A stretch of DNA of 64,000 bases from Paragemmobacter ruber (lineage in GTDB: Bacteria; Pseudomonadota; Alphaproteobacteria; Rhodobacterales; Rhodobacteraceae). Where the stretch lies: positions 620,001 to 684,000 of the forward strand of contig NZ_JAAATW010000001.1 in assembly GCF_009908315.1 (NCBI RefSeq), read 5' to 3'. The notes under the pieces were generated by a model. It saw nothing but the letters and a program-made list of their open reading frames with translations. It was not told where the DNA came from and did no database searches. Positions 34,855-54,765 of the stretch are shown here, piece by piece; within the stretch, counting starts at the first letter, position 1; every line of letters begins with the position of its first letter. The translations under genes were made by a program, and so were the position numbers.

Positions 34855-34868
34855 CTCAGCCCCAAATC

Positions 34869-35253: not shown

Positions 35254-35637
35254 TTACACGATCACGATGGTCAGCACGGTCAGCACGACCGACCCGATCA
35301 CACAGGCCCAGCCCAGCTTCTCCGCCGTGGGAATGTCGAGGCCCTTGCCTGCGTCATAGATCAGGTGGCGGATCCCGGCGAGGTAGTGGTACCACAGCGC
35401 CCAGGCCGACAGGGTAAAGACCAGATCGCCGAACCAGCTTGTCGCCACCGCATCCGCGATCGCGAAATACTCGGGCGACACCGCCGCCGCCAGCAGCCAC
35501 CACACCGCCAGCAGGGTGCCGACGATCAGCCCGTTCCCCGTGATCCGCGTCAGGATGGATGTGATCGAGGTAAGCTGCGGACGATAAATCTGCAGGTGCG
35601 GGGAAAGGGGTCGCTCGACCCGCTTCGCTTCAGCCAT
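35254..35637 (-). CDS. sdhC: succinate dehydrogenase cytochrome b556 subunit
   Basis: This 127-aa membrane subunit starts MAEAKRVERPLSPHLQIYRP, with the RPLSPHLQIY signature of the SdhC family and the SILTRITGNGL helix contacting the quinone. The heme-ligand histidine is in AGIRHLIYD (third-helix entry). ATG 35637 matches the family start; a frame extending to 35739 adds unrelated residues. It is the first gene of the sdh operon; the twin-palindrome element at 35795-35827 lies 158 nt upstream. Confidence 0.93.
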   Translation of the reverse strand: MAEAKRVERPLSPHLQIYRPQLTSITSILTRITGNGLIVGTLLAVWWLLAAAVSPEYFAIADAVATSWFGDLVFTLSAWALWYHYLAGIRHLIYDAGKGLDIPTAEKLGWACVIGSVVLTVLTIVIV

Positions 35638-35794
35638 CTCGGTTCCCTTCGTCGCTGGCTTGCCCGTCCAGTCGGACCGGCGGGCGCGCATTCTTGGCCT
35701 TATGACGGATGTGAATAGCGTTTTTTGCGGGCGAGTCACGCATCACAACGCCGCAGATGCAGGCTGTTGGCGCTAAACCGCAGAAAATTTTCGA

Positions 35795-35827
35795 TTTGTG
35801 ATCACACCCGGAAAAAGCGTGATCACA
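35795..35827 (-). promoter_or_regulatory. twin TGTGATCACA operator upstream of sdhC
   Basis: Read in the sdh direction, this is TGTGATCACG, then CTTTTTC, CGGG and TGTGATCACA, with palindrome centres exactly 21 bp apart (35797-35806 and 35818-35827). The same element, 31 of 33 positions identical and in the same orientation, lies upstream of sucC. It is a strong candidate for a shared TCA-cycle operator. Confidence 0.72.
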
Positions 35828-35834
35828 GTTTTCC

Positions 35835-36650
35835 TCACTCCTGCGGCGCGGTGGACAGGATGTATTCCGCCATCTCGCTGCACATCGTGATCATCTTTTC
35901 CGACGGGTCATAGAAGGCGTTGGCCTCTTCGCAAGGCGCCACCTGCACCCCCACGGGCTCGGGCAGAGTCCAGACGGAATTGAGGTAATCCACCTCCTCC
36001 AGAATCGCCGCCTCGATGTAATCCGCAGGCTCACCCTCGCCCTGCCAGACAAGGCTATCGCCCGGCCCCGCGGCCTCCAGCTCATCCAGATAGACACCCC
36101 ATGACCCGGCGGCGAGGTCGAACTCGTCGGGGCATGTCGCCGCGCGATCCTCGGGCAGGCCATAGTCCACAGCCAGCGCCTCGCGCTCCTCCGGCGCGCC
36201 CCCGTAGTAAAGGCAAAGATAGGTGAAATACCGCCGCTCATCTGGCGAATGAACGCCCCAGAAGGCCGGCTCATACCCCGCTTCCGCCGTTTCGACCGCG
36301 CTCGCCCACCAGAAATTCGCCGCCGCCGCAACCTTGGCCTCGGACGATTCGGCATCCCACAGCCGGTCGATCATCACGACCGACAGCACATCCGCCGCAT
36401 CCTCCTCCAGCCCCAGCACGGGCAACTGCATCACGTCGATCAGCGCGTGGCCGAGTTCGTGATAGAAGATCGTCAGCATCACGTCGCGGGCATACCACTC
36501 CGCATCGGTCAGGTTCAGCTCTTCGCCGGCGAGACTGTCGTCTTCCCCACCCTGTCCGTCCCCGGACGGCCCCTTGTAGCCAAGGCTCTGCGCCGCCGCC
36601 CCGCAGGACAGCGACAGACAGATAACAAGGGAACCGATCAAACGCAGCAT
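35835..36650 (-). CDS. DUF4344 secreted zinc metallopeptidase-like protein
   Basis: This 271-aa exported protein has a signal peptide MLRLIGSLVICLSLSCGAAA (AQS cleavage). The metallopeptidase motif HELGHALIDVMQLPVLGLEE (HExxH followed by a downstream Glu and EEDAADVL) is the hallmark of the DUF4344 family. The mature chain is acidic and carries several conserved cysteines. ATG 36650 is chosen for the signal peptide; a longer frame runs into the intergenic region. A TGTGATCACA palindrome lies 45 nt upstream. It is transcribed leftwards and ends just before the twin palindrome of sdhC. The substrate is unknown. Confidence 0.82.
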   Translation of the reverse strand: MLRLIGSLVICLSLSCGAAAQSLGYKGPSGDGQGGEDDSLAGEELNLTDAEWYARDVMLTIFYHELGHALIDVMQLPVLGLEEDAADVLSVVMIDRLWDAESSEAKVAAAANFWWASAVETAEAGYEPAFWGVHSPDERRYFTYLCLYYGGAPEEREALAVDYGLPEDRAATCPDEFDLAAGSWGVYLDELEAAGPGDSLVWQGEGEPADYIEAAILEEVDYLNSVWTLPEPVGVQVAPCEEANAFYDPSEKMITMCSEMAEYILSTAPQE

Positions 36651-36693
36651 GATTGAACTCTTGCCGAACGCGCCGCACCGATCAAGCGCGATT

Positions 36694-36705
36694 TTGTGAT
36701 CACAA
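36694..36705. promoter_or_regulatory. single TTGTGATCACAA palindrome upstream of the metallopeptidase gene
   Basis: A perfect 12-bp palindrome sits in the 61-bp gap between the mesaconyl-CoA hydratase stop and the DUF4344 start. It is the same core as the paired sites of sdhC and sucC, here in one copy. Confidence 0.5.
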
Positions 36706-36711
36706 GCCCCC

Positions 36712-37743
36712 TCACACGGGCACCAGCGCCCAGTAATCCAGATCCAGCAGAACCTCGGGCAGGTATTTCCCATCCGCCCCCTTCAGGCCAAAGGGCGCCG
36801 CGCCGTCCTTCACCGCCACCAGCCGCAGGCGCAGCGCACCCACGCCCGGCGTCGCGGTTTCCGCGCGGTCCAGCACCTCGGACCAGGCCCGCACCGTATC
36901 CCCCGCAAAACAGGGGTTGGCATGGGCGCCCCCGTTCAGCGCCACGATCATCTGCGCATTGGCCAACCCGTTGAACGACAGGGCGCGGGCCAGCGAAATC
37001 ACGTGGCCCCCATAGATCAGCCGCCGCCCATCCTCGCGCTGGGTCACGTCGAAATGCACCTTCGACGTGTTCTGCCACAGCCGCGTCGCCATCAGGTGAT
37101 CGGCCTCTTCCACCGTCACCCCATCCACGTGGTCGATCCGCTCACCCACCGCGTAATCCGCAAAGCGGTGCCGCTCCCCCGCCAGCGCGAAATCGTAGCG
37201 CGAAAAGTCCAGCTCTTCAGGCAACACCAGCGCCTCGGGCTGCACCACAGGCGCAAGCGACGGCACCACCGCCGCTGGGGCAGGCGCTTCGAGACGCGCT
37301 TTCTTCACCATCACCCAACGCACATATTCCAGCACCGCCTCGTCGCGCTGGTTGATCCCGCGGGTGCGGACATAGACCACGCCCGACTTGCCGTTCGAGT
37401 TCTCCTTCAACCCGATCACGGTCGATTCCGACCGCAGCGTATCGCCCGCATAGACCGGGGCCAGCCAGCGCCCCTCGGCATAGCCGAGGTTCGCCACCGC
37501 ATTCAGGCTGATATCCGGCACGGTCTTGCCGAAGACCACATGAAAGGCGATCAGGTCATCCATGGGCGCCGCAGGCAGCCCGCAGCCCCGCGCGAACGCG
37601 TCGGACGAATACAACGCCCCCCGCGCAGGATAGAGCGCATGGTAAAGCGCGCGCTCCCCGCCCGACACCGTGCGCGGCACGGCATGGACGATCGTCTCGC
37701 CCAGAGTGTAATCCTCGAAAAACCGCCCCGGATTGGTCTTCAT
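36712..37743 (-). CDS. mch: mesaconyl-CoA hydratase (beta-methylmalyl-CoA dehydratase)
   Basis: This 343-aa double-hotdog enzyme of the MaoC/R-hydratase superfamily interconverts mesaconyl-CoA and beta-methylmalyl-CoA in the ethylmalonyl-CoA pathway. It begins MKTNPGRFFEDYTLGETIVH; the first hotdog contains SSDAFARGCGLPAAPMDDL and YAGDTLRSESTVIGLKENS, the second VTVEEADHLMATRLWQNTSK and IYGGHVISLARALSFNGL. In Rhodobacter sphaeroides the corresponding gene also lies near sdh. With mcl2 close by, the window carries two of the glyoxylate-shunt-replacing functions. A general MaoC dehydratase is the alternative call. Confidence 0.86.
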   Translation of the reverse strand: MKTNPGRFFEDYTLGETIVHAVPRTVSGGERALYHALYPARGALYSSDAFARGCGLPAAPMDDLIAFHVVFGKTVPDISLNAVANLGYAEGRWLAPVYAGDTLRSESTVIGLKENSNGKSGVVYVRTRGINQRDEAVLEYVRWVMVKKARLEAPAPAAVVPSLAPVVQPEALVLPEELDFSRYDFALAGERHRFADYAVGERIDHVDGVTVEEADHLMATRLWQNTSKVHFDVTQREDGRRLIYGGHVISLARALSFNGLANAQMIVALNGGAHANPCFAGDTVRAWSEVLDRAETATPGVGALRLRLVAVKDGAAPFGLKGADGKYLPEVLLDLDYWALVPV

Positions 37744-37758
37744 CGCCTGCCTTCTCCC

Positions 37759-37786
37759 GTAGGATGGGCAAGACTGCCCATCCTAC
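37759..37786. repeat. REP-like palindrome GTAGGATGGGCA, unit 1
   Basis: GTAGGATGGGCA and TGCCCATCCTAC form a perfect 12-bp stem around AGAC. It lies between mch and the DUF1737 gene and is followed 18 nt later by a second unit. Arms start with GTAG, the head tetranucleotide usual in REP elements. Confidence 0.8.
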
Positions 37787-37804
37787 CCACCCGTCTCTGT
37801 CCCC

Positions 37805-37832
37805 GTAGGATGGGCCAGTCGGCCCATCCTAC
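37805..37832. repeat. REP-like palindrome, unit 2
   Basis: GTAGGATGGGCC and GGCCCATCCTAC form a 12-bp stem around AGTC. The end of the DUF1737 gene lies within it: the TAG stop (minus strand, 37829-37831) is the GTAG head of the repeat. Confidence 0.8.
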
Positions 37833-38032
37833 ATCTCACCCAGTTTCACATCCGGCGCATAGGTCCCCGGCACATCCTTCACCACCGCCTGCCCACAGCG
37901 CATGACGCCGCGCGCGGCGTCGAAGGCATAGGTCGGCCCGCCATGCAGTTCCCACCCCTTGTTCAGGGCTGCCGTCACCTTGTGGCAAAAGGCGGATGTG
38001 TCATCCTCCGACAGGAAGCGGTACAGTTTCAT
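37829..38032 (-). CDS. DUF1737 small protein
   Basis: This 67-aa protein begins MKLYRFLSEDDTSAFCHKVT and continues ALNKGWELHGGPTYAFD, the DUF1737 pattern of a short alpha/beta fold with GW.L.G.P. Function is unknown. The last codon and stop lie in a REP-like palindrome, so the C terminus may have been set by insertion of the repeat. It is 15 nt downstream of the NnrU gene and probably co-transcribed with it. Confidence 0.82.
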   Translation of the reverse strand: MKLYRFLSEDDTSAFCHKVTAALNKGWELHGGPTYAFDAARGVMRCGQAVVKDVPGTYAPDVKLGEM

Positions 38033-38047
38033 CCTCTCACCCCCCGA

Positions 38048-38596
38048 TCAGCCCCACGGCTGATAGCCCAGCCAGTTGTGGATCAACATGATCCCCACCG
38101 TGACGACCACCGTCCCCACGATCGCCTTCCACTCCGCCCCGGGCTTGGCCACCGGCGGGGTCCAGTCCCGCTGCGCCCGGTTGATCAGGATGACCGACAC
38201 CACCGCCCAAGCCAGCAGCCCACCGAACAGGATCAGCGACGGCAGATCACCATTCACCAGAAGATGCGCCACCGCCCAGGTCTTCACCGCCGTCAGTTGC
38301 GGATGCCGGATGCGCCGCGCCAGCGCGGCCTTGGTGCCCGACGCCGCATAAAGATAGACGGCAAACACCATCAGCAGGTTGTTGATCCCCACCAGCGCCG
38401 CATTGCGGCCCCACCAGACCGCCGCCTCCGCCTTCGCCGCGCCATAGCCGAAATACATCATCACGACCGAGGCGAGGATGGCCACGGCCACGATCCCCCG
38501 GCCCGCATTGCCCAGACGCGCCCGCGCCTCAGGCACCACGCGCTTGAACAGATGCGCCCCCCACCACAGGGCCATGCCAAGGATCAACAGGGTCAT
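38048..38596 (-). CDS. NnrU-family membrane protein
   Basis: This 182-aa protein has five to six membrane helices. It begins MTLLILGMALWWGAHLFKRV, and the block IRHPQLTAVKTWAVAHLLVN (a HPxL..K.WA.AHLL.NGD motif) is characteristic of NnrU, a family related to MnmE-like steroid 5-alpha reductase/isoprenylcysteine methyltransferase folds and first noted in nitrite/nitric-oxide reductase loci. No denitrification genes occur here. Its role is uncertain. It follows mcl2 on the same strand by 41 nt. Confidence 0.87.
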   Translation of the reverse strand: MTLLILGMALWWGAHLFKRVVPEARARLGNAGRGIVAVAILASVVMMYFGYGAAKAEAAVWWGRNAALVGINNLLMVFAVYLYAASGTKAALARRIRHPQLTAVKTWAVAHLLVNGDLPSLILFGGLLAWAVVSVILINRAQRDWTPPVAKPGAEWKAIVGTVVVTVGIMLIHNWLGYQPWG

Positions 38597-38637
38597 CGCT
38601 CACACCTCCTGGCTACCGACGCCGCCGCACCCTGCCC

Positions 38638-39531
38638 CTATTCCGCGCCCACCGCAATTCTCTGCACCCCGAACGCCTGCACCCCGGCTTCCAGCAGCCG
38701 GATCGCCTCGGCCCGCGCCAGCACCGCCTGCGCGCTCACCACATGCAGGTTCTCCACGATCCGCCCGTCCAGCACCGCCACGCCCTGCCCCTGCGCCTGC
38801 GCCGCGTTGAAGGCGGCGATCTGCCGCCGCGCCAGATCGACCTCTGCCTCGCTGGGGGCAAAGGCGGCATTGGCGATCTCCACCTGCGCGGGATGGATCA
38901 GCGTCTTGCCGTCAAACCCCATGTCACGCCCCTGCGCACATTCCGCCGCCAGCCCCGCCTCATCCCTGAACGCGTTGAAGACCCCGTCCACGATCACCCG
39001 GCCATGCGCCCGCGCCGCCAGCAGGCACATCCCCAGCCCCGCCATCAGGGGCATCCGGTCCGCCCGGCTCCGGCAGCCCAGTTCCTTGGCCAGATCGTTC
39101 GTCCCCATCACCATCCCTGCCAGCCGGGTATGCGCTGCGATGGCGGCGGCGTTCAGCATCCCCGCCGCCGTCTCCATCATCGCCCAGAGGGGCTTTTCCC
39201 CCGCCACCGCCGCCACGGCATCAAGATCCGCCGGACCATTCACCTTTGGCACAAGGATCGCCTCCACACCCGGATGGGCGGCAAAGGCCGCCGCATCCGC
39301 GCGCCCCCAATCCGTGTCAAAGCCATTGATCCGCACGATCCGCGCCCGTGGGGCATAATCAACTTCGGCAAGAAACCGCGCCAGCGTCGCCCGGGCGGCA
39401 ACCTTCTCTTCCGGGGCGACCGCATCCTCCAGATCGAAGATGATCGCATCCGCAGCCAGACCGCGCGCCTTCTCCAGCGCGCGCTCCTTCGAGCCGGGAA
39501 TATACAGCACAGACCGGTAAGGGCGTGTCAT
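38638..39531 (-). CDS. mcl2: (3S)-malyl-CoA thioesterase, CitE/HpcH family
   Basis: This 297-aa TIM-barrel protein of the HpcH/HpaI-CitE family starts RSVLYIPGSKERALEKARGL, with DAIIFDLEDAVAPEEK (metal-binding Glu/Asp), RINGFDTDWGRAD and MMETAAGMLNAAAIA. The C-terminal lid is KTLIHPAQVEIANAAFAPS. In R. sphaeroides the paralogue Mcl2 hydrolyses (3S)-malyl-CoA, giving apparent malate synthase activity, and lies near mdh as here. A citrate-lyase-beta or lyase function is the alternative; the genomic context favours Mcl2. Confidence 0.82.
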   Translation of the reverse strand: MTRPYRSVLYIPGSKERALEKARGLAADAIIFDLEDAVAPEEKVAARATLARFLAEVDYAPRARIVRINGFDTDWGRADAAAFAAHPGVEAILVPKVNGPADLDAVAAVAGEKPLWAMMETAAGMLNAAAIAAHTRLAGMVMGTNDLAKELGCRSRADRMPLMAGLGMCLLAARAHGRVIVDGVFNAFRDEAGLAAECAQGRDMGFDGKTLIHPAQVEIANAAFAPSEAEVDLARRQIAAFNAAQAQGQGVAVLDGRIVENLHVVSAQAVLARAEAIRLLEAGVQAFGVQRIAVGAE

Positions 39532-39600
39532 CCGAGTCGCCTCCGCGCAAGATTCTTTCGCCTAAAGGCACGATTTCGGAAGTATCGGCAAGCCCCATAA

Positions 39601-41220
<1,620 letters not shown>

Positions 41221-41245
41221 TCGCCCGACCCGTGCTAATCCAGAC

Positions 41246-41270
41246 GGGGCGCCCTGCCACGGGGCGCCCC
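41246..41270 (+). terminator. terminator after mdh
   Basis: GGGGCGCCC (41246-41254) pairs with GGGCGCCCC (41262-41270) around a 7-nt loop and is followed by TCTTCGTTTC, 25 nt after the mdh stop. Confidence 0.72.
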
Positions 41271-41297
41271 TCTTCGTTTCCCTGAAAGGCCCACCCG

Positions 41298-41465
41298 ATG
41301 GACTATGGCAAGAACGGCAATCCGAAGGCCGCCAAGGACAGCCACCACCCACTCGACCAGCCCCGCCGTGGCGCGCCCAAGGGCGATGCGGCGGCGGCGC
41401 AGAAAAAGGCCGAACTGCTCGCCCGCATGAAGGCGGCCGCCGCGGCGCGCAAGACCAAGGACTGA
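41298..41465 (+). CDS. 55-aa basic alanine/lysine-rich small protein
   Basis: A short frame starts at ATG 41298 and ends TGA 41463-41465. It begins MDYGKNGNPKAAKDSHHPLD and ends with a charged helix AAAAQKKAELLARMKAAAAA. Codon use follows the high-GC third-position pattern of real genes here, and GAAAGG lies upstream. Similar MDYGK-starting short proteins are, as far as I recall, common in Rhodobacterales, but the family has no function. Its lysine/alanine-rich helix could bind nucleic acid. It lies between mdh and a periplasmic protein gene. Confidence 0.6.
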   Translation: MDYGKNGNPKAAKDSHHPLDQPRRGAPKGDAAAAQKKAELLARMKAAAAARKTKD

Positions 41466-41487
41466 CCCCAGACCGGAGGCCACGATC

Positions 41488-42690
41488 ATGCCCAGACGTC
41501 CCGCCTCCCACGCTCTCCTCCTGTCGGCGCTGCTGTTCGCGCCGCTGCCCGTCGCGGCACAGGACCTCTCGGCCAGCATCGCCGCAGACGGCCTTGCCGC
41601 GACCGAAGCAGAACTCGCCGCCCTCCCCACCCCGACAGAGGCCGACCGCTTCGCCCTGGGGGGCCTCCGCTTCCTGCGGGCCGTCGAGACCACCTATCAG
41701 ACCCGCTGGCGCACGGGCCTTGACGATCCCTCCGGTATGGTCCCTCTCCTGCGCCTCGAACAGGGCGTCTCGCCCGCGGCCAGCTCCTCCCCCGGCGACG
41801 TTTCCGCCCTCTTCGCGCAGGTCGCCACCGACATGGCCTCCGCCCGCGCCCCCCTCGCAGGTCTGTCCGAAGGCCCCGAATTCAGCGTGGAAATCCGCCT
41901 CGCCGACCTCTGGTTCGACGTGAATGCCGACGGGACGCGCACGCCTGACGAAGACCTGATGCAACTCCTCGGCCCCACCCTCATGGGCTGGCGCTGGTTC
42001 GACCGCGACCCCGCCGCCCCCGCGCCCGTGATCCGCTTCGACCGCGCCGATGCCGCCTGGCTTTCGGCCTATACTCACCTTCTCGAAGGCACGGCAAAGA
42101 TCATCCTCGCCTATGATCCGACCGATGCCATTACCCGCGCCGCCTCTGCCCGCACGGCGATGCAGGCCATCTCCCCGCCCTATGCCGAAGAGATTTTCGT
42201 CATCCGCCCCTGGGTCGATGCGCTCTGGGTCATGCTCGACGCGCTGGATCAGCAGCCCGACGCCGCCCGCCTTGCGCAGGCCCGCGACCATTTCCTCGCC
42301 ATGATCGCCGACAACCGCGCCTTCTGGACGGCCGTCGAAAAGGAGACGGACAATGACGCCGAATGGCTTCCCAACGCGCGCCAGACCTCTGCGCTCGGCC
42401 TGACGCTCCCACCGGAAACCGGCCTCACATGGCTTGCCGTTCTGGCCGATGGCGAGGCGCTCCTGAAGGGCGAGAAGCTCATCCCCTACTGGCGCTTGGG
42501 TGATGGCGGCGGCGTGAACCTCGCCCGCATGTTCACCGATCCCGCGCCCATCGACGTGAAGGACTGGATACAGGGCACGGGCGCCCTGCCCTATCTCGAA
42601 CAGGGCGCCACAGTCAGCGCCGACAGCTGGCAGCGGTTCGAGGCGATGATGGGCGGGGACGCGATGCTCATGTCGGTCTGGCTGAACTGA
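41488..42690 (+). CDS. periplasmic protein of unknown function with a DxDxDG-like loop
   Basis: This 400-aa exported protein has a signal peptide (MPRRPASHALLLSALLFAPL, AQD cleavage). A WFDVNADGTRTPDEDL segment near residue 145-160 looks like a single calcium-binding EF-hand-type loop. The rest is helix-rich with conserved Trp residues (GWRWFDRD, PWVDALWVML). It starts 22 nt after the 55-aa gene, so the two probably form an operon. I do not recognise a characterised homologue; similar proteins occur as conserved hypotheticals. A compound palindrome follows it. Confidence 0.72.
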   Translation: MPRRPASHALLLSALLFAPLPVAAQDLSASIAADGLAATEAELAALPTPTEADRFALGGLRFLRAVETTYQTRWRTGLDDPSGMVPLLRLEQGVSPAASSSPGDVSALFAQVATDMASARAPLAGLSEGPEFSVEIRLADLWFDVNADGTRTPDEDLMQLLGPTLMGWRWFDRDPAAPAPVIRFDRADAAWLSAYTHLLEGTAKIILAYDPTDAITRAASARTAMQAISPPYAEEIFVIRPWVDALWVMLDALDQQPDAARLAQARDHFLAMIADNRAFWTAVEKETDNDAEWLPNARQTSALGLTLPPETGLTWLAVLADGEALLKGEKLIPYWRLGDGGGVNLARMFTDPAPIDVKDWIQGTGALPYLEQGATVSADSWQRFEAMMGGDAMLMSVWLN

Positions 42691-42767
42691 GGGCGGCGCA
42701 TGGGCCGAATGGCCCATCCTACCCCGCGCCGCCGCCTGTAGGATGGGCCATCCGGCCCATGCCGCCC
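42691..42767. repeat. inverted pair of REP-like palindromes
   Basis: Two units of the GTAGGATGGGC repeat face each other: 42700-42722 and 42738-42760, with outer flanks GGGCGGC and GCCGCCC, giving an imperfect palindrome of about 77 bp. Each unit keeps one intact GTAG-headed arm (the inner one) and one shortened outer arm. This BIME-like arrangement starts at the stop of the preceding gene. Confidence 0.72.
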
Positions 42768-42853
42768 TTTGTGCATGATCGCACGCCGTGGAAATTCCAG
42801 CTCACCCCCTCTCTCCAAATTTGTATGCACACTCTGCTGCACAAAGGGCGGCA
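42760..42853. repeat. 16-bp perfect inverted repeat upstream of pepT
   Basis: TGCCGCCCTTTGTGCA (42760-42775) is exactly complementary to TGCACAAAGGGCGGCA (42838-42853), enclosing 62 nt. The inner part contains GTATGCAC (42823-42830), the same octamer repeated before lpd. It may be a large hairpin in the pepT leader or the ends of a tiny mobile element; it encodes nothing. Confidence 0.7.
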
Positions 42854-42933
42854 CAGCCGATTTCACCCAACGTCCCGCCACCATTGACTTCCCCCCGCCC
42901 CCACGGCCACATCCCCCTGACAGGGGACCCACC

Positions 42934-44172
42934 ATGACAACACGCACCGAAGACCTCGCCGCCCGCCTGATGCGCTACTGCGCCATCGACACCCAATCTG
43001 ACGCCGACAGCCCCAGCCAGCCCTCCACCGCGATCCAGCTCACCCTCGCCCGTCTTCTGGTCGAGGAACTCACACAGATCGGCGCCTCCGATGTCACCCT
43101 CACCGATTACGGCACCGTGCTTGCCACCATCCCCGCCACGGCAGAGGGCCCCACAATCGGCTTCCTCGCCCATATGGACACCGCGCCCCAGTTCAACGCC
43201 ACCGGCGTGAAACCCCGCCTGATCCGCGGCTACAATGGCGGCGCGATTACCTTTCCTGACAACCCGACCCTGACCCTCACCCCCGACGCCTCACCCAACC
43301 TGTTGAAAAAGCTGGGCCATGACATCGTCACCGCCTCCGGCACCACCCTTCTCGGCGCCGATGACAAGGCCGGGATCGCCATCATCCTCCATACCGCGCA
43401 AACCCTTCTGAACGACCCGGCAATCCCCCACGGCCCCATCCGCCTCGCCTTCACGCCAGACGAGGAAATCGGCCGCGGTGTGGACAAGCGCCTGCCGAAG
43501 GACCTCGCCGTGGACTGGGCCTATACCTTCGATGGCGGCGAGGCGGGCGAAATCGAATATGAAACCTTCTCCGCCGACGGGGCCGAGGTGCGCATCGAAG
43601 GCGTCTCCATCCATCCCGGCTGGGCCAAGGGCAAGATGGTCAACGCCATCCACCTCGCCGCAAAGATCATCGCCGCCCTGCCGCAGCACACCATGCTGCC
43701 CGAACTCACCGATGGCCGCGACGGTTTCATCCACGCAACCGAAATGACGGGCGGCTCCTCTGCCATGACACTCCGCTTCATCCTGCGCGATTTCGAACGC
43801 GAAGGGCTTGAAGAGAAGGGCAAAATCCTCCGTGCCGTCTGCGATGCCGTGCAGGCGTCTGAGCCCCGCGCCAGCATCACCTGCACGATCACGCCGCAGT
43901 ACCGCAACATGCGCTACTGGCTGGAAAAGGACATGCGCCCTGTCACGCTGGCACAGGATGCCTGCCGCGACATCGGCCTCGATCCCGTCTCTGTCCCGAT
44001 CCGCGGCGGCACCGACGGCTCGCGCCTGACGGAAATGGGCGTTCCCTGCCCCAACCTCTTCACAGGGATGCAGGAAATTCACGGGCCTCTGGAATGGGTC
44101 TCGGTGCAGGACATGGAACGCGCCTCGGACCTGATGCTCGCCCTCCTGCGCCGCGCGGCGGCGCAGACGTAG
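42934..44172 (+). CDS. pepT: peptidase T (tripeptide aminopeptidase)
   Basis: This 412-aa M20B zinc exopeptidase removes N-terminal residues from tripeptides. Zinc-site motifs are FLAHMDTAPQFN (His80, Asp82), GADDKAGIA (Asp143), TPDEEIGRG (Glu177/178) and a C-terminal FTGMQEIHGPLEW histidine. Length matches the family. ATG 42934 begins the M20 N terminus MTTRTEDLAARLMRYCAID; an upstream frame runs through the inverted-repeat leader and is not homologous. The TAG stop is the head of a REP-like palindrome (44169-44196). Confidence 0.93.
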   Translation: MTTRTEDLAARLMRYCAIDTQSDADSPSQPSTAIQLTLARLLVEELTQIGASDVTLTDYGTVLATIPATAEGPTIGFLAHMDTAPQFNATGVKPRLIRGYNGGAITFPDNPTLTLTPDASPNLLKKLGHDIVTASGTTLLGADDKAGIAIILHTAQTLLNDPAIPHGPIRLAFTPDEEIGRGVDKRLPKDLAVDWAYTFDGGEAGEIEYETFSADGAEVRIEGVSIHPGWAKGKMVNAIHLAAKIIAALPQHTMLPELTDGRDGFIHATEMTGGSSAMTLRFILRDFEREGLEEKGKILRAVCDAVQASEPRASITCTITPQYRNMRYWLEKDMRPVTLAQDACRDIGLDPVSVPIRGGTDGSRLTEMGVPCPNLFTGMQEIHGPLEWVSVQDMERASDLMLALLRRAAAQT

Positions 44173-44196
44173 GATGGGCAATCCTGCCCATCCTAC
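44169..44196. repeat. REP-like palindrome at the pepT stop
   Basis: GTAGGATGGGCA and TGCCCATCCTAC form a perfect 12-bp stem around ATCC. It provides the pepT stop codon (TAG, 44170-44172) and the ATG (44174) from which the next frame opens. Confidence 0.8.
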
Positions 44197-44860
44197 CCGG
44201 CAGCTCCCCTCGCCCTACGCTGCCCCCGGCTTCTACGAAGACGCCCTCGCAAAGGGGCGCCACCGCGACATCGTCGGTGGCCGTTGGGACGAAACGCCCC
44301 GCATCGTCCTCCCCCTCCTCCGCGAACACGGCCTCACCGCCACCGACCACCTGCTCGACATCGGCGCGGGCGCGCTCCGCCTCGGCCGCCATCTCGCGCC
44401 CATGGTCGCCGCCTATTGGGCGACCGACGCCTCCCGCGCCCTGATGCTCAAGGGTTGGGAAACCGAACTGGAGGACGCCGCCCAGCAGGCCCTCCCGCAA
44501 GACCGGCTGATCGAAGACGCCGCCTTCGCCTATCCCGAAATTCCCGAAACCATCACCTTCGCCCTCGCCTTCGCCGTCTTCACCCATCTCCCGGCCTCCG
44601 ATCTTCACAAGGCGTTGACCAATCTCCGCCCGCGCTTCCCGCACCTGCGCCATGTGATCTTCACGGTTTTCCTCGCCCCCGAAGGCCATCACGGCCCCCG
44701 CCGCCAGAATGACGGCGTCGTGACACATCCCGACCGCTTCCCCTGGCATATGACCGAAGCAGAGGTCCGCCAGATCGCTGAAACCGCAGGCTTCACCGCC
44801 ACCGCCCAGCCGCACCGCCTGCCCCGGGGGCAGGTTATGTTCACGGCGCATCCCCGCTGA
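44174..44860 (+). CDS. class I SAM-dependent methyltransferase
   Basis: This frame of 228 aa has the Rossmann SAM-binding motif HLLDIGAGALRLGRHLA followed by YWATDAS (acidic loop) and TFALAFAVFTHL, typical of class I methyltransferases. Homology begins around GFYEDALAKGRHRDIVGGRW, suggesting sugar, small-molecule or lipid methylation; the acceptor is unknown. The only suitable ATG (44174) lies inside a REP-like palindrome, so the first dozen residues are repeat-encoded and the native start may have been lost or lie elsewhere. It follows pepT by 1 nt. Confidence 0.75.
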   Translation: MGNPAHPTRQLPSPYAAPGFYEDALAKGRHRDIVGGRWDETPRIVLPLLREHGLTATDHLLDIGAGALRLGRHLAPMVAAYWATDASRALMLKGWETELEDAAQQALPQDRLIEDAAFAYPEIPETITFALAFAVFTHLPASDLHKALTNLRPRFPHLRHVIFTVFLAPEGHHGPRRQNDGVVTHPDRFPWHMTEAEVRQIAETAGFTATAQPHRLPRGQVMFTAHPR

Positions 44861-44863
44861 AAC

Positions 44864-44890
44864 CCCGCCCCGTGTCAGGCCCGGGGCGGG
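44864..44890 (+). terminator. hairpin after the methyltransferase gene
   Basis: CCCGCCCC (44864-44871) pairs with GGGGCGGG (44883-44890), 3 nt after the stop and before the sucC regulatory region. It has a short pyrimidine tail (CTTCC). Confidence 0.6.
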
Positions 44891-44932
44891 CTTCCGGCTC
44901 GAATCACTCTTTATCGCTAACGGAATCCTGCT

Positions 44933-44965
44933 TGTGATCACACTTTTTCAGGGTGTGATCACAAA
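44933..44965 (+). promoter_or_regulatory. twin TGTGATCACA operator upstream of sucC
   Basis: TGTGATCACA (44933-44942), CTTTTTC, AGGG, TGTGATCACA (44954-44963), with centres 21 bp apart. It is 31/33 identical to the element upstream of sdhC and in the same orientation relative to transcription. It lies 105 nt before the sucC ATG and just upstream of a likely -10 hexamer. Confidence 0.75.
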
Positions 44966-44999
44966 ATGTCGATTTTTCCCGGCAAACCCCGGTATCCCG

Positions 45000-45005
45000 T
45001 AGAAT
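45000..45005 (+). promoter_or_regulatory. candidate -10 hexamer of the suc operon
   Basis: TAGAAT stands 37 nt downstream of the twin palindromes and 65 nt before sucC. No good -35 hexamer is visible at the usual distance, which would fit an activator-dependent promoter with the palindromes near -55 and -75. Confidence 0.4.
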
Positions 45006-45070
45006 ACCGTTTCAACCCTGCCCATTTCCGTGGCAAGACCCCGCAAAACCACTAGGACGGGACGGTTGCG

Positions 45071-46264: not shown

Positions 46265-46815
46265 GCAAAGCTTTGCTCAATACGTTTGCTGAGAAGACGC
46301 TACGCGCTCAGAGCCTTGTCGCTTTGGGGCTTCTGGCAGTTATGGGGATCAGCACTGCAACTCTAGCAGAAGATAGTGTCGACGTCGTTCCCGGCACCAA
46401 CGAGGCGACATCGGAAGTCGCGGCAAAGATTTTCTATCAGGTCTGCGTTCAGACAGCCCCGACGTTCGAGAACGCCGAAGCCGTCCTGCGTGGCTTGGAG
46501 TTCAACCTCAAGACTGATTCAGGAACGTTCTTCCACCCCGACTACGATCTCTCCGCTCAAATCAAAACCGGCGTGGCCGAGCCACAATGCTCGTTGGTCA
46601 CTATTGGCAACGGAACACCATCCGAAATGGCAATGGACTATGCCGGCGTGACCTTTGCACGGGTCCCAGAAGACGAAAGGGCCAATACGATGATTGACGG
46701 GATGGGGACAGGCCAATTGCGGGTCTACCACCCAGGGCTCGGCTATCTCTACGTTGACGTCAAAAACGTTAGCGGACGTTTGGTCACCCACGCGGTCCTA
46801 CAACCAGAGAAATGA
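46261..46815 (+). CDS. secreted protein of unknown function inserted between sucC and sucD
   Basis: This 184-aa protein starts at GTG 46261, overlapping the sucC stop by 4 bp. An N-terminal hydrophobic stretch ([20 protein letters not shown]) looks like a signal peptide cleaved near LAE. The mature part has two Cys ([20 protein letters not shown]) that could form a disulfide. Base composition is clearly less GC-rich than in sucC and sucD, and codon use is mixed, pointing to recent acquisition. No family is recognised. It separates genes that are usually adjacent. Confidence 0.65.
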
Positions 46816-46882
46816 TCGAGGGGCGGGTTTGGCTGCCCTTTACGGTAACGGCGCAGGAAGAGGCGCCACGGAGAAAGAAAAG

Positions 46883-47767
46883 ATGTCCGTTCTCGTCAAC
46901 AAGAACACCCGCCTCATCTGCCAAGGCTTCACCGGCAGCCAGGGCACCTTCCATTCCGAACAGGCCATCGCCTACGGCACCAAGATGGTGGGCGGCGTGA
47001 CCCCCGGCAAAGGCGGCACCGAACATCTGGGCCTGCCCGTCTTCGACTCTGTCCATGACGCGGTGGAAAAGACCGATGCCAATGCCACCGTCATCTACGT
47101 CCCCCCGCCCTTCGCCGCCGACTCGATCCTCGAGGCGATTGATGCCGAAATCCCGCTGATCGTGGCCATCACCGAAGGCATCCCCGTGCTTGACATGATG
47201 CGGGTGAAGCGCGCGCTGCTGAATTCGAAATCCCGCCTGATCGGGCCGAACTGCCCCGGCGTGATGACCCCCGGCGAATGCAAGATCGGCATCATGCCGG
47301 GCAGCATCTTCTCCAAGGGTTCCGTCGGCGTCGTCTCCCGCTCCGGCACGCTGACCTATGAGGCGGTCAAGCAGACCACCGATGTGGGCCTCGGCCAGAC
47401 CTCGGCCGTGGGCATCGGCGGCGACCCGATCAAGGGATCCGAACATATCGACATCCTCGAGATGTTCCTCGCCGACCCCGACACCCAGTCGATCATCATG
47501 ATCGGCGAAATCGGCGGCTCGGCGGAAGAAGAGGCCGCCCAATTCCTGGCTGACGAAAAGAAACGCGGCCGCTGGAAACCCACCGCGGGCTTCATCGCAG
47601 GCCGCACCGCACCGTCCGGCCGCCGCATGGGCCATGCTGGCGCGATCGTTGCAGGGGGCAAGGGCGACGCGGAAAGCAAGATCGAGGCGATGAAGTCCGC
47701 AGGCATCATCGTCGCCGAAAGCCCCGCCCATCTGGGCGAGGCCGTGCTCAAGGCGATCGGCAAGTAG
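46883..47767 (+). CDS. sucD: succinyl-CoA synthetase alpha subunit
   Basis: This 294-aa CoA-binding subunit has CoA-binding N-terminal residues [20 protein letters not shown] and GGVTPGKGG, the block [20 protein letters not shown], and the phosphorylated histidine His251 in [20 protein letters not shown]. It acts with SucC in the TCA cycle. ATG 46883 has a GAGAAAGAAA stretch upstream. The 67 nt after the preceding passenger gene carry no clear terminator, so transcription from sucC probably continues. Confidence 0.96.
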
Positions 47768-47794
47768 GGACCGGGCAAAGGGAGGAAGGCACTG

Positions 47795-47932
47795 ATGGAT
47801 GTTCGCGCGAAAACGGTCGTTGCCTCTTTCCTTGCCCTGATGGGCTTTCTTGCCCTCGCCGCCTGGGCGTCCATGAACCACGCACAACCGAACCGCGCGC
47901 TGCAAGGCGCGCTGTTCGACCGATCCGAATAA
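47795..47932 (+). CDS. 45-aa single-span membrane peptide
   Basis: A short frame starts at ATG 47795 with an excellent site GGGAGGAAGG 5-6 nt upstream. It encodes MDVRAKTVVASFLALMGFLA then LAAWASMNHAQPN and a short polar tail: one hydrophobic helix (about residues 8-27). It lies 27 nt after sucD and 13 nt before the DUF805 gene, on the same strand. Strong ribosome site, position and composition support a real small protein. Function unknown. Confidence 0.6.
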   Translation: MDVRAKTVVASFLALMGFLALAAWASMNHAQPNRALQGALFDRSE

Positions 47933-47945
47933 AGGCCATCCCCTC

Positions 47946-48467
47946 ATGGGACCGTCGCAAGCCTTGCGAACATCACTGCGGAACGCATTCCGCTATTCGG
48001 GCCGCGCCACACGGTCTGAATTCTGGTGGCTTGTGCTTGCTGCCGTTTTGGTGACCGGCGCTGCGTCGGCCCTTGACCGCATCCTGTGGCCTGATCTTTC
48101 TGCCCACTTCTGGCTGAACTTCGGAGATGAGGCCGCGCGGGTTACCGCAGGGTTCGTGGCGTCACCTTTGAACACCATCGCAGCTATCTGCTGCCTCGTC
48201 CTCATTGCGGCGGCTATGGTGCGCCGCCTGCATGATGCTGGGCTTTCCGGCAAGCTGGCATTGGTCCCGCTGCTTGCGGTCTGTCTGGTCGTCGCCATCA
48301 TTGCACTGTCGATCTTCGTGTTTCCCGACGCCGGGGCATCCCAGCCAGTCATGATTTGTCTGCTGATCCTCATCACAAGCCTGTTGCTTATGGTCGCGTG
48401 GCTTTGCCGCCGATCTGACCCCCATCAAAATCGCTACGGCCCCCCTCCCTTCGAGGTTACCAAATGA
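47946..48467 (+). CDS. DUF805 membrane protein
   Basis: This 173-aa protein of the DUF805 (YhaH-like) family has the N-terminal FRYSGRATRSEFWWLVLAAV motif (F.Y.GRA.R.E.W), four transmembrane helices and the conserved AAMVRRLHDAGLSGKLAL block. Family function is unknown; members are often near stress or phage genes. Here it is a passenger between sucD and sucA, overlapping the sucA ATG by 4 bp. Composition is less GC-rich than in the TCA genes. Confidence 0.85.
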   Translation: MGPSQALRTSLRNAFRYSGRATRSEFWWLVLAAVLVTGAASALDRILWPDLSAHFWLNFGDEAARVTAGFVASPLNTIAAICCLVLIAAAMVRRLHDAGLSGKLALVPLLAVCLVVAIIALSIFVFPDAGASQPVMICLLILITSLLLMVAWLCRRSDPHQNRYGPPPFEVTK

Positions 48468-51430
48468 CCGATCAATCCCCCACCGCCGCCTTCACCGCCT
48501 CGTCCTTCCTTGACGGAGGGAACGCCGATTACATCGACCAGCTTCAGGCCCGCTATGCTGCCGATCCCAACGCGGTCGATGCGCAATGGGCCGAATTCTT
48601 CCGTGCGCTGGGCGACAGCGAGGTGGACGCCAAACGTCAGGCCACCGGTCCCTCCTGGGCGCGCGCCGACTGGCCGCCCAGCCCGACCGATGACCTGACC
48701 GCCGCGCTCACCGGCGAATGGCCCGCCGCCCCGGCCAAGGAAGCGAAGGCCGCCGCCACCAAGATCGTGGAAAAAGCCACTGAGAAGGGCGTCTCGTTGA
48801 CCGACGCACAGGTCCAACGCGCCGTGCTCGATTCCATCCGCGCGCTGATGATCATCCGCGCCTACCGCATCCGGGGCCATCTGGTGGCCGATCTCGATCC
48901 GCTGGGGATGCGCGAGACCACCCCCCACCCGGAACTGGACCCCGCCTCCTACGGCTTCACCGACGCCGACATGGACCGCCCGATCTTCATCGACAATGTC
49001 CTCGGCCTTGAAATGGCGTCGATGCGCCAGATCATCGACATCGTCAAACGCACCTACTGCGGCACCTTCGCGCTGCAATACATGCACATCTCCGATCCCG
49101 AACAGGCAAGCTGGCTCAAGGAACGGATCGAAGGCTACGGCAAGGAAATCGCCTTCACGCGCGAAGGCCGCCGCGCCATTCTGAACAAGCTGGTCGAGGC
49201 GGAGGGGTTCGAGAAATTCCTCCATGTCAAATACATGGGCACCAAACGCTTCGGCCTTGACGGGGGCGAGGCGCTGATCCCCGCCATGGAACAGATCATC
49301 AAGCGCGGCGGCGCGCTGGGGGTGAAGGAAATAGTCATCGGTATGCCCCACCGGGGCCGCCTGTCGGTGCTGGCCAACGTCATGGCCAAACCCTATCGCG
49401 CCATCTTCCACGAATTCCAGGGCGGCTCCTACAAGCCCGAAGATGTGGATGGTTCCGGCGACGTGAAATACCACCTCGGCGCGTCTTCGGACCGCACCTT
49501 CGATGGCAACACCGTCCACCTGTCCCTGACCGCGAACCCCAGCCACCTAGAGGCGGTGAATCCCGTGGTCCTCGGCAAGGTCCGCGCGAAACAGGATCAG
49601 CTGGGCGATCAGACCGACCGTCACTCCGTCCTGCCGATCCTTCTGCACGGCGATGCGGCCTTCGCAGGGCAAGGCATTGTGGCGGAATGTTTCGGCCTGT
49701 CGGGCCTGCGCGGCCACCGCACGGGCGGCACCATCCATATCGTGGTGAACAACCAGATCGGCTTCACCACCGCGCCGCACTTCTCGCGCTCCTCGCCCTA
49801 TCCCACCGACATCGCCCTGATGGTCGAGGCGCCCATCTTCCACGTCAACGGCGACGATCCCGAGGCCGTGGTCCACGCCGCCCGCGTCGCCACCGAATTC
49901 CGCCAGAAGTTCCACAAGGACGTGGTGCTCGACATCTTCTGCTATCGCCGCTTCGGCCATAACGAAGGCGACGAGCCGATGTTCACCAACCCGGCGATGT
50001 ATACCCGCATCAAAAAGCAGAAGACCACGCTTCAGCTTTACACCGAACGTCTGGTGAAAGACGGCCTGATCCCGGAAGGCGAGATCGAGGATATGAAGGC
50101 CGCCTTCCAGGCCCGCCTGAACGAAGAATTCGAGATCGGCAAGAACTTCAAGCCGAACAAGGCCGACTGGCTCGATGGCCGCTGGTCGGGGCTCGATCGC
50201 GAAAAGGATGAATACCAGCCCGGCCAGACCGCGATCAAACCCGAAACCATGGCCGAGGTCGGCGCCGCGCTGACCCGCATCCCCGAAGGCTTTGACATCC
50301 ACAAGACCGTCGCCCGCCAGCTCGAGGCGAAAAAGCAGATGTTCGAAACCGGGCGCGGCTTCGATTGGGCCACGGCCGAGGCGCTCGCCTTCGGCTCCCT
50401 CGTCACCGAAGGCTATCCCGTGCGCCTGTCCGGGCAGGACTGCACCCGCGGCACCTTCTCACAGCGCCATTCCGCCTTCATCGACCAGACGACCGAGGAA
50501 AGGCACTACCCCCTCAACCACATCCGCGCGGGCCAGGCGCGGTATGAGGTGATCGATTCCATGCTGTCGGAATACGCGGTCCTCGGGTTTGAATACGGCT
50601 ACAGCCTCGCCGAACCCAACGCGCTGACCATGTGGGAGGCGCAGTTCGGCGATTTCGCCAACGGCGCGCAGATCATGTTCGACCAGTTCATCAACTCGGG
50701 CGAACGCAAATGGCTGCGCATGTCGGGCCTTGTCTGCCTGCTGCCGCATGGCTTCGAAGGGCAGGGTCCTGAACATTCCTCCGCCCGACTGGAACGCTTC
50801 CTCCAGAACTCGGCCGAGGATAACTGGATCGTCGCCAACTGCTCGACGCCGGCGAACTACTTCCACATCCTGCGCCGCCAGATCCACCGCAGCTTCCGCA
50901 AGCCGCTCATCCTGATGACGCCGAAATCCCTGCTGCGCCACCCGATGTGCATCAGCGATGCGGAAGATTTCACCACCGGCTCCACCTTCCACCGCGTGCT
51001 CTGGGACGATGCGCAAAAGGGCCATTCCGACCTGAAGCTGAAGCCGGATGCCAAGATCAAGCGCGTCGTCATCTGCTCGGGCAAGGTCTATTATGACCTC
51101 CTCGCCGAACGCGACAAGCGCGGTCAGGACGACACCTATCTCCTGCGGCTGGAACAGTTCTATCCCTTCCCGGCCATGTCCATGGTCAAGGAACTGGAAC
51201 GCTTCAAGAATGCCGAAGTGATCTGGTGCCAGGAAGAGCCGAAAAATCAGGGCGGCTGGTCCTTCGTCGAACCCAACCTCGAATGGGTGCTGTCCCGCAT
51301 CGGGGCAAAGTCGAAGCGCGCCACCTATGCCGGACGCACGGCCTCTGCCTCGCCCGCCACGGGCCTCGCCTCGCGCCACAAGGCGGAACAAGAGGCGCTG
51401 GTGAACGAAGCGCTGGGCACCACCGCCTGA
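48464..51430 (+). CDS. sucA: 2-oxoglutarate dehydrogenase E1 component
   Basis: This 988-aa thiamine-diphosphate enzyme decarboxylates 2-oxoglutarate and succinylates the lipoyl domain of E2. It begins with [20 protein letters not shown], the E1 N-terminal arm. The ThDP site includes [31 protein letters not shown] and [11 protein letters not shown]. The C-terminal transketolase-like part has [13 protein letters not shown] and [20 protein letters not shown]. Its start overlaps the DUF805 stop (ATGA). A hairpin separates it from odhB. Confidence 0.97.
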
Positions 51431-51439
51431 TCCCATCCC

Positions 51440-51462
51440 GCCCGCGCCCCCCGGGCGCGGGC
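51440..51462 (+). terminator. intra-operon hairpin between sucA and odhB
   Basis: GCCCGCGCCC (51440-51449) pairs with GGGCGCGGGC (51453-51462) around CCC. It is 10 nt after the sucA stop and is followed by ACATAAAAAAAG rather than a T-run. It more likely stabilises or attenuates the transcript than ends it. Confidence 0.45.
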
Positions 51463-51509
51463 CCCACGACATAAAAAAAGCGCCCCGAAGCGGCGCGGAG
51501 GAACCGAAG

Positions 51510-52724
51510 ATGACCGATGTTATGGTGCCCGCCCTTGGCGAAAGCGTGTCCGAGGCGACCGTCTCGACCTGGTTCAAGAAGCCGGGCGATTTCGTCAAGC
51601 AGGACGAAATGCTGTGCGAATTGGAAACCGACAAGGTGTCGGTCGAAGTGCCCGCCCCCGTCTCCGGCACGCTGACCGAAATCCTCGCCCCCGAAGGCGC
51701 GACCGTGGCCGCCAATGCGCGCCTTGCGATCATGACCGAAGGCGGCGCCGCCGCCGCACCCGCCGCGCCGAAGGCCGAAGCCGCACCCGCACCCGCCCCC
51801 GCCCCGGCGGCTAAGGATGTTGAAGACGCCCCCGCCGCCAAAAAGGCGATGGCCGAGGCCGGGCTGTCCCGGGATCAGGTGCAGGCCACCGGCCGCGACG
51901 GCCGCGTGATGAAGGAAGACGTGGCCCGCGCCGTGGCCGGTGCCGCAGGTGCCGCCGCCGCCGCCGTAGCCCCCGCGCCCGCCCCCGCCGCCCTGCCCCG
52001 AGCGCCCGTTCCCGCCGACGATGCCGCGCGGGAAGAACGGGTCAAGATGACCCGCCTTCGCCAGACCATCGCCCGCCGCCTGAAGGACGCGCAAAACACC
52101 GCCGCCATGCTGACCACCTATAACGAGGTGGACATGTCCGGCATCATGGAGTTGCGCAACACCTACAAGGACGCGTTTGAAAAGAAGCACGGCGTCAAGA
52201 TGGGCTTCATGTCCTTCTTCGTTAAGGCCTGCTGCCACGCCCTGAAAGAGGTGCCGGAAGTCAACGCCGAAATCGATGGCACCGATATCGTCTACAAGAA
52301 CTACGTCCATATGGGCGTGGCCGTGGGCACCCCCTCGGGCCTCGTCGTCCCAGTGGTGCGTGACGCCGACCAGATGGGTTTCGCCCAGATCGAAAAGAAG
52401 ATCGCCGAACTCGGCCTCCGCGCCCGCGACGGGAAACTGTCCATGGCCGAAATGCAGGGCGGTTCCTTCACCATCTCGAACGGCGGCGTCTACGGCTCGC
52501 TCATGTCCTCGCCCATCCTGAACCCGCCGCAATCGGGCATCCTCGGCATGCACAAGATCCAGGATCGTCCCGTTGTGGTGAACGGCCAGATCGTCATCCG
52601 CCCGATGATGTATCTCGCGCTCTCCTACGATCACCGCATCGTGGACGGCAAGGGCGCCGTGACCTTCCTGGTCCGCGTGAAAGAGGCACTGGAAGACCCG
52701 CGCCGGCTGTTGATGGATTTGTGA
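51510..52724 (+). CDS. odhB: 2-oxoglutarate dehydrogenase E2, dihydrolipoyl succinyltransferase
   Basis: This 404-aa E2 core has one lipoyl domain (residues 1-77, lipoylated Lys42 in [12 protein letters not shown]), an Ala/Pro linker, a peripheral subunit-binding domain (about 103-143), a second Ala/Pro linker, and the acyltransferase domain with catalytic His375 and Asp379 in [19 protein letters not shown] site precedes the ATG. It carries the succinyl group to CoA. The next gene starts 1 nt later, so co-translation with the passenger genes is likely. Confidence 0.96.
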
Positions 52725-52725
52725 T

Positions 52726-53289: not shown

Positions 53290-53411
53290 CCCCCGAACGC
53301 ACCGCCCCACCCATCGCAGGCTTCTTGCAAGCGGCGCGGTTCAACCTCTTTGCCGTCCCCGCCGACATGAAGCTGCGCACCAGCCGCATCAAAGGGAACC
53401 CGCCCGCATGA
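53286..53411 (+). pseudogene. 41-codon fragment resembling the MAPEG N terminus
   Basis: This short frame from ATG 53286 reads MTPERTAPPIAGFLQAARFN then LFAVPADMKLR; the full MAPEG gene at 54274 reads MTPELTALTLAGLLQMVQFV then LFAVPANRELG. The first 13 nucleotides are identical and similarity continues for about 30 codons before the frames diverge. It has overlapping ATGA junctions on both sides, so it may still be translated. It is best explained as a truncated duplicate of the MAPEG gene flanking the sulfotransferase. Confidence 0.6.
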
Positions 53412-54669: not shown

Positions 54670-54675
54670 GACATT

Positions 54676-54719
54676 GTATGCACCCGGTATGCACGCCCGT
54701 CTGCACTGGCCGTATGCAC
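54676..54719 (+). promoter_or_regulatory. four phased GTNTGCAC repeats before lpd
   Basis: GTATGCAC occurs at 54676-54683, 54687-54694 and 54712-54719, with GTCTGCAC at 54699-54706. The start-to-start distances are 11, 12 and 13 bp. The array fills the gap between the MAPEG stop and lpd, 46 nt before its ATG. A further GTATGCAC lies in the pepT leader. Confidence 0.6.
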
Positions 54720-54765
54720 GCGTTACGGCATGGCCAAGACGGCCACGAATGGAAGGAAACGACCC

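Follow-up and report, generated by a model that had tools for sequence, protein, structure and literature searches.

A palindrome pair upstream of sdhC and sucC in Paragemmobacter ruber is a probable double operator of the GntR-type regulator AkgR

Why do two nearly identical 33-bp elements stand before sdhC and sucC in Paragemmobacter ruber, and which protein would read them? Both lie in a stretch of 64,000 nt (NZ_JAAATW010000001.1, 620,001-684,000), hereafter the window, and all coordinates are counted from its start. We conclude that each element is very probably a double operator of AkgR, a GntR-family regulator whose gene lies in the same window, and that AkgR bound there would activate both the sdhCDAB promoter and the promoter before sucC. 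The argument starts from the following features.

35795..35827, minus strand: predicted double site for AkgR upstream of sdhCDAB; the palindromes are at 35818-35827 (distal) and 35797-35806 (proximal), with a gap of 13 nt from octamer to octamer
44933..44965, plus strand: predicted double site for AkgR upstream of sucC; the palindromes are at 44933-44942 (distal) and 44954-44963 (proximal)
35254..35637, minus strand: sdhC; start at MAEAKRV within a longer open reading frame (ORF, 35254-35739), picked by comparison with locus L184
45071..46264, plus strand: sucC; sequence-based assignment
57447..58097, minus strand: akgR; GntR-FCD regulator of 216 aa, orthologous to the GntR gene that accompanies sdh in C. 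sphaeroides

Results

Two elements share a rare palindrome and a fixed geometry

An earlier note on this DNA had described a twin-palindrome element before each of the two genes, and the sequence at both places reads as claimed. Re-aligned in the direction of transcription, the elements are identical at 31 of 33 positions. The octamer GTGATCAC starts at 35798 and 35819 in the sdhC element and at 44934 and 44955 in the sucC element, in agreement with the 21 bp that the note had given between palindrome centres. Three of the four decamers read TGTGATCACA, and the one at 35818-35827 reads CGTGATCACA on the plus strand. The octamer is as rare as the note had it: the window holds six copies, four of them in the elements, one at 36696 upstream of a metallopeptidase gene, and a single further one at 1248. 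Shuffled windows contained 1.0 copy on average and 4 at most, and 0/100 shuffles reached six. When the whole genome (3,955,066 bases) was scanned for GTGATCAC-N13-GTGATCAC, the only exact matches were the sdhC and sucC elements, and the remaining 8 matches each carried two mismatches.

In the Rhodobacteraceae, the pair keeps a firm geometry

We surveyed 198 Rhodobacteraceae genomes from 197 genera for the pattern GTGATCAC-N{1,31}-GTGATCAC, the family assignment being judged from named relatives. The pair was found in 176/198 genomes and 175/197 genera, mostly in two copies per genome. A control palindrome of the same composition, CTGATCAG, gave a pair in 14/198 genomes. A chance origin of the paired motif is thus ruled out by the shuffles, the uniqueness in the whole genome and the control palindrome taken together. 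By hand count, 75 family places listed had spacers of N13 in 62 cases, N12 in 6 and another length in 7, so the two-turn spacing proposed in the earlier note is retained family-wide (N12 or N13 in 68/75). A class-wide scan matched 22/289 genomes, namely 4 of the family and 18/285 others, and these 18 had scattered spacers, two of them N13. In another family of the class, we also noticed an N13 pair (L226, position 992) 143 bp before a frame that is 29% identical to AkgR.

The pairs keep their place as well as their spacing. In the first 30 loci, sdhC, sucC or sucA adjoined the pair in 27/27 cases with N12 or N13, while query genes stood beside 0/3 examined of the 7 odd-spaced family pairs among the places listed. 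We then counted pairs in fetched regions, which were picked mainly from N12/N13 places and overlap with the first 30 loci. Here, 72/73 family pairs preceded sdhC (33) or sucC (39, one of these sucA), with a spacer of 13 in 65 and of 12 in 7. The earlier note had proposed looking for the pair before sdh and suc operons across Rhodobacterales, and had supposed a regulator site common to sdh and suc/odh; both ideas are supported by these positions. Across about 57 genomes mapped, pairs lay at the sdhC and sucC promoters with one exception (L224). Arrays of three or four palindromes occur before sucC at L129, L136, L151, L316 and L318 (G135 and G191 included), mostly in 21-bp steps, with one 26-bp step each in L136 and L151. 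Rescanning 23 genomes with mismatches allowed, we found many two-mismatch pairs, as chance predicts, and, besides the one-mismatch pairs of G040 and G155, a one-mismatch pair in G102. A 12-13 nt spacer and tandem steps of 21 bp are most naturally read as an arrangement on which two dimers would bind cooperatively.

The letters between the palindromes behave differently. The spacer CTTTTTC-NGGG, which the earlier note had taken as part of the element, turned out to be specific to P. ruber, and spacers diverge in other genomes. Among 24 genomes that have two spacers of 13 nt, the two were identical at 1-8 of 13 positions in 23 genomes and at 11/13 only in P. ruber. The mean identity was 4.4 of 13 within genomes vs 4.3 between genomes, and a conserved spacer sequence was rejected on this comparison. 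Since the spacer is free across the family, its near-identity in P. ruber would have arisen locally by accident or through recent conversion.

The pair follows akgR across genomes

Contrary to the earlier note, which placed the regulator gene outside the window, we found a GntR-FCD gene at 57447-58097 on the minus strand. Its product matches PF00392 (GntR, E 1.4e-13) and PF07729 (FCD, E 2.8e-17), both above cut-off. It is identical at 179/216 aligned residues to its ortholog in genome G051 (84% in another search). We regard G051 as C. sphaeroides, for 6 kb of one of its small contigs match plasmid records of the species at 100% identity, one of these records being from strain 2.4.1; a second contig gave no match. 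The gene order in G051 is sucA-sucD-sucC-mdh-...-sdhC-D-A-B-...-GntR, with pairs of N13 spacing at sucC and sdhC. An excerpt of PMC4344238 gives RSP_0981 as the GntR regulator predicted for RSP_0967-6 (sucCD), RSP_0974-6 (sdh) and RSP_0965-62 (odh). The G051 order fits this RSP_0962-0981 numbering, and the GntR gene beside sdh would therefore be RSP_0981. In the part of PMC6365646 seen, GTGATCAC is identified among the AkgR sites of R. sphaeroides and AkgR is termed a transcriptional activator; in the part of PMC4419725 seen, AkgR occurs only in the reference list. PMC11323563 also turned up for the motif or its regulator.

We checked the co-occurrence of gene and pair, calling akgR orthologs at E < 1e-50. 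Among the first 80 family genomes, 70 had an ortholog, and the pair was present in 69/70 with akgR vs 1/10 without. A second 80 genomes, chosen to take in the 12 other pairless genomes, gave 66/69 vs 2/11. Combined, the pair was present in 135/139 akgR genomes vs 3/21 without (Fisher p = 3.3e-17, a nominal value only, because the genomes are related). The gene lay within 10 kb of an sdh, suc or mdh gene in 22/46 named loci with full flanks.

The octamer also occurs before akgR itself. With akgR starts in relatives extrapolated from the start of the window gene, GTGATCAC stood 13-33 bp before the start in 16/79 named loci (L114, L117, L146, L155, L160, L161, L163, L170, L171, L173, L174, L177, L178, L180, L181 and L183), in 12/16 at -16/-17. 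There was none before akgR in the window or in loci at least 84% identical to the window akgR. A site so placed would fit autorepression, and AkgR likely regulates itself in part of the family. An MFS transporter gene (56312-57439, minus strand) follows akgR on the same strand after a gap of a few bases. Going by this arrangement, the two genes possibly form one operon, and the transporter perhaps carries the metabolite that AkgR would sense.

A ladder of A/T tracts runs from the pair to the predicted promoter

The predicted promoter and the tracts before it lie as follows.

35712..35739, minus strand: predicted sdhC promoter; -35 GTGACT (35734-35739), -10 TATTCA (35712-35717)
35755..35796, minus strand: phased A/T tracts from the sdhC pair to the -35 box; taken from the family-wide profile, limits approximate
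44964..45006, plus strand: phased A/T tracts from the sucC pair to the -35 box; taken from the family-wide profile, limits approximate

We aligned 33 sdhC and 39 sucC sequences on the proximal palindrome, mostly one genome per genus, yet related. Downstream of the pair, the A/T content oscillates between about 0.2 and 0.9 over about 45 bp in both sets. The power peaks at a period of 10.5 for sdhC and 9.5-10 for sucC, and 0/1000 random-shift controls reach the peak; periods neighbouring it are also above the controls. At 10.2 bp, the downstream power was 0.126 (sdhC) and 0.128 (sucC), with 0/1000 controls each. Upstream of the distal palindrome it was 0.025 for sdhC, a value reached by 160/1000 controls, and 0.034 for sucC, reached by 1/1000. 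A held-out set of 20 loci fetched later (15 sdhC and 17 sucC sequences) reproduced the profile with correlations of 0.76 (sdhC) and 0.91 (sucC), which turned to -0.6 to -0.8 after a 5-base slide. At positions 10-15, the dinucleotide counts for sdhC/sucC were AA/TT 44/72, AT 18/27 and TA 9/11. This prevalence of AA/TT implies that runs of A or of T are interchangeable at one step.

The -35 region is tied to the pair too. GTGAC is found 58-61 bp after the pair in 24/33 sdhC sequences and in 11/15 held out; counted from it, T stands at +22 and A at +23, each in 21/24. In the sucC set, T occupies 48, 49 and 50 bp in 31, 30 and 25 of the 39 sequences. The operator thus lies at a near-fixed distance from the -35 box with helically phased A/T tracts between, less sharply for the sucC -35. 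Transcription starts were placed by rule from the predicted promoters, about 93 bp (sdhC) and 84 bp (sucC) after the proximal octamer. Relative to these starts, the dyads would lie near -97/-118 (sdhC) and -88/-109 (sucC), which would suit an activator acting through the C-terminal domains of the RNA polymerase alpha subunits (alpha-CTDs). Measured from the rule-placed start, the tracts of sucC lie at about -82, -72, -62, -52 and -42, and in E. coli, alpha-CTD sites form a ladder at such positions.

Class I activators of E. coli sit well upstream and work with alpha-CTD sites resembling UP elements. Set against this background, the P. ruber promoters are alike in having an upstream operator and helically phased A/T tracts up to the -35 box. 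They differ in having two palindromes 21 bp apart, a conserved A/T ladder and two sister operons, and here the alpha-CTD contact is only putative.

Two other features lie within this stretch. A stretch close to TGCGCCAAAAAACC stands about 20-40 bp after the pair in the sdhC promoters of L195, L200, L203, L206, L209, L210 and L215, and may be either the site of another factor or a favoured A-tract. A CceR-like motif, TGTTGGCGCTAAACC, occupies 35765-35779, downstream of the sdhC pair and ahead of the -35 box. Scanning with a CceR motif taken from an excerpt of PMC4344238, we found 3/33 sdhC and 5/39 sucC hits vs shuffle means of 2.3 and 3.5; the motif is not enriched, and co-regulation by CceR was rejected.

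Counter-evidence and rival readings

Several points weigh against AkgR as the protein of the pair and against the promoter model. Four akgR genomes lack an exact pair (G040, G155, G122 and G147). G040 has two one-mismatch pairs, before sucC and sdhC; those of G155 have no query genes alongside; and completeness is 76% for G122 and 73% for G147. The pair was found with no akgR ortholog in G019 (before sucC), G096 and G114, and G109, scored as akgR-negative, has a 58%-identical fragment. At L224 (G042, position 1494), a third N13 pair has no tricarboxylic acid (TCA) cycle gene beside it. Both the -35 and the -10 boxes of sucC are poor, and its -35 showed less regularity among the held-out sequences. 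RSP_0981 is taken here to be AkgR, and for direct activation of TCA genes the model leans on what Imam et al. (2015) reportedly found and on PMC6365646 terming AkgR a transcriptional activator. Lastly, promoters of the family may carry such an A/T ladder as a general trait, and one weak control bears on this. Apart from these points, in the pairless genome G157 the best akgR match (G157:C5:11726-12295) is 44% identical with four internal stops; it is either a gene that decayed along with the lost operator or a distant relative.

The strongest rival concerns the ladder and not the operator. That the A/T ladder is plain intrinsic curvature, or a trait of promoters at large that exists independently of AkgR, is a substantial possibility falling a little short of an even chance. 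A and T runs share steps, as narrow-groove A-tracts would; weak periodicity appears upstream of the sucC pair as well, reached by only 1/1000 controls; and some akgR-negative sucC upstream regions show high single-sequence periodicity. On the other side, the ladder downstream keeps its register with the palindromes and, for either gene, is about fourfold stronger than the upstream signal. It is also weaker before sucC where akgR is missing. Single-sequence periodicity was lower in 16 akgR-negative sucC upstream regions than in 56 positive ones (p = 0.008, fixed windows), and again when best windows of 39 positive and the 16 negative regions were compared (p = 0.013). These sets are small and imperfectly matched: the ranges overlap widely, and the negative regions are less A/T-rich (0.45 vs 0.53).

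A second rival keeps the operator and changes the protein: another GntR paralog, or several of them, would bind the pairs, and AkgR would merely accompany them through a common genome history. The P. ruber genome does hold 20 GntR-domain matches above the Pfam cut-off, and an excerpt of PMC6365646 proposes the use of GTGATCAC by a GntR protein 32% identical to AkgR. Yet the pair tracks the presence of akgR across genomes; the nearest akgR paralog in P. ruber is 37% identical, and matches of 34-36% are the best to be had in the pairless G101 and G195. As RSP_0981 is moreover the regulator predicted for these very targets in R. sphaeroides (PMC4344238, in part), we consider a paralog improbable.

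Still less probable is an operator of the CRP/FNR type, with half sites TGTGA...TCACA. The half-site letters do agree with the CRP consensus. CRP operators have six bases between half sites; in the present elements the half sites abut, and GTGATCAC without any gap is what 176/198 genomes conserve. We rejected this type on the missing gap, and the part of PMC4344238 seen predicts no CRP analogue in R. sphaeroides. A mobile or repeated element resembling REP sequences, or a terminator, would account for copies 31/33 identical in P. ruber, but we discount it almost entirely, as octamers are kept while spacers diverge, the pairs hold to two promoters in the mapped genomes (L224 excepted), GTGAC keeps its distance in 24/33 sdhC sequences, and the further exact copies that it predicts are absent from the whole-genome scan.

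Operon context and further candidate sites

The genes downstream of the two promoters, and the one gene that shares the palindrome as a single copy, are listed here.

34869-35240, minus strand: sdhD; sequence-based assignment
33052-34872, minus strand: sdhA; sequence-based assignment
31539-32315, minus strand: sdhB; after sdhA, named from its sequence
46694-47767, plus strand: ORF of sucD, the true start lying inside it; named from sequence
48464-51430, plus strand: sucA; named from sequence
51510-52724, plus strand: sucB; named from sequence
54730-56154, plus strand: lpd; named from sequence
35835-36650, minus strand: DUF4344 metallopeptidase gene; likely start 36650, between mch and sdhC
36695..36704, strand not assigned: single TGTGATCACA, about 45 bp upstream of the likely DUF4344 metallopeptidase start

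Other small frames are interspersed in the sucD-sucA-sucB-lpd stretch (46694..56154, plus strand), and we have assumed that this stretch is a single transcription unit. Homologues of genes in it were placed by tblastn. The single TGTGATCACA at 36695-36704 makes the metallopeptidase gene a possible third target of AkgR. In the congeneric genome G104 (L315), the gene is 81% identical and has the same TGTGATCACA site; the other 19 held-out loci, those of the sister genera G135 and G022 included, show no DUF4344 metallopeptidase gene. It may possibly have been recruited into the AkgR regulon. Beyond the pairs and this site, the genome has exact TGTGATCACA at C1:1538540, inside a frame resembling flhA (named by eye), and at C6:25488, along with 61 one-mismatch sites. 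Between sdh and mdh, 36712-39531 holds a mesaconyl-CoA-hydratase gene (mch) and a second gene that by eye looks CoA-lyase-like; mch is present in 16/20 loci of the held-out set.

Discussion

We propose that AkgR, dimeric as its family suggests, would place two dimers on two TGTGATCACA palindromes, two turns apart and on one face of the double helix. So bound, it would activate the sdhCDAB promoter and the promoter before sucC, with sucD, sucA and sucB downstream. For P. ruber, both binding and activation are read from sequence comparison. The A/T tracts would then link AkgR to the polymerase, either as minor-groove docking steps for alpha-CTDs or through intrinsic curvature, and we hold the two about equally probable; docking taken by itself is a step on which we stay slightly on the doubtful side. 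As a tentative model of the sister promoters, two AkgR dimers would be followed by four to five A/T steps of about 10 bp up to the -35 box, and alpha-CTDs or a planar bend would carry activation over about 50 bp. The ladder, not the base sequence, would be selected, and its length would differ by about one helical turn between the promoters (the -35 starts at about 59-60 bp in sdhC vs about 48 bp in sucC).

How far is this a known system? In its orthologous regulator, its upstream GTGATCAC, its N13 spacing and its predicted targets (sdh, sucCD and odh, the last only as genes downstream of sucC), the P. ruber arrangement is like the AkgR (RSP_0981) regulon of R./C. sphaeroides, where the same targets are predicted. 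The tandem pair, the 21-bp rule and the A/T ladder go unmentioned in the main text of PMC4344238 as far as it was seen, and the terms tandem, direct repeat and cooperativ have 0 matches in it. PS417_07240 of Pseudomonas simiae, the regulator of deoxyribonate genes in excerpts of PMC6365646, is likewise GntR-like, is 32% identical to AkgR, and has the palindrome GTGATCAC. It differs in that a palindrome occupies -47 to -40 relative to the start codon of its own gene, in that these excerpts mention no pair, and in serving another pathway in another bacterial class. The akgR product also matches McbR, a GntR protein of solved structure (4p9f, E = 1.3e-20). We claim no orthology; by sequence the two belong to one family, the window protein having a helix-turn-helix and an FCD domain, while the targets of McbR differ.

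The finding is then largely explained, as a well-supported operator of a known regulator, whose regulon is known in kind, with published predictions for R. sphaeroides. The part that a specialist may not expect is the A/T ladder. Activation of both promoters by AkgR would set the succinate-forming and the succinate-oxidising steps of the TCA cycle together. The motif is thereby given a name and a gene, as well as a rule for the family as a whole: in most of the genera sampled, a single GntR protein probably ties two neighbouring TCA steps together. The ladder, visible only when dozens of genera are aligned on the palindromes, suggests how a GntR activator could reach the polymerase from a distant double site.

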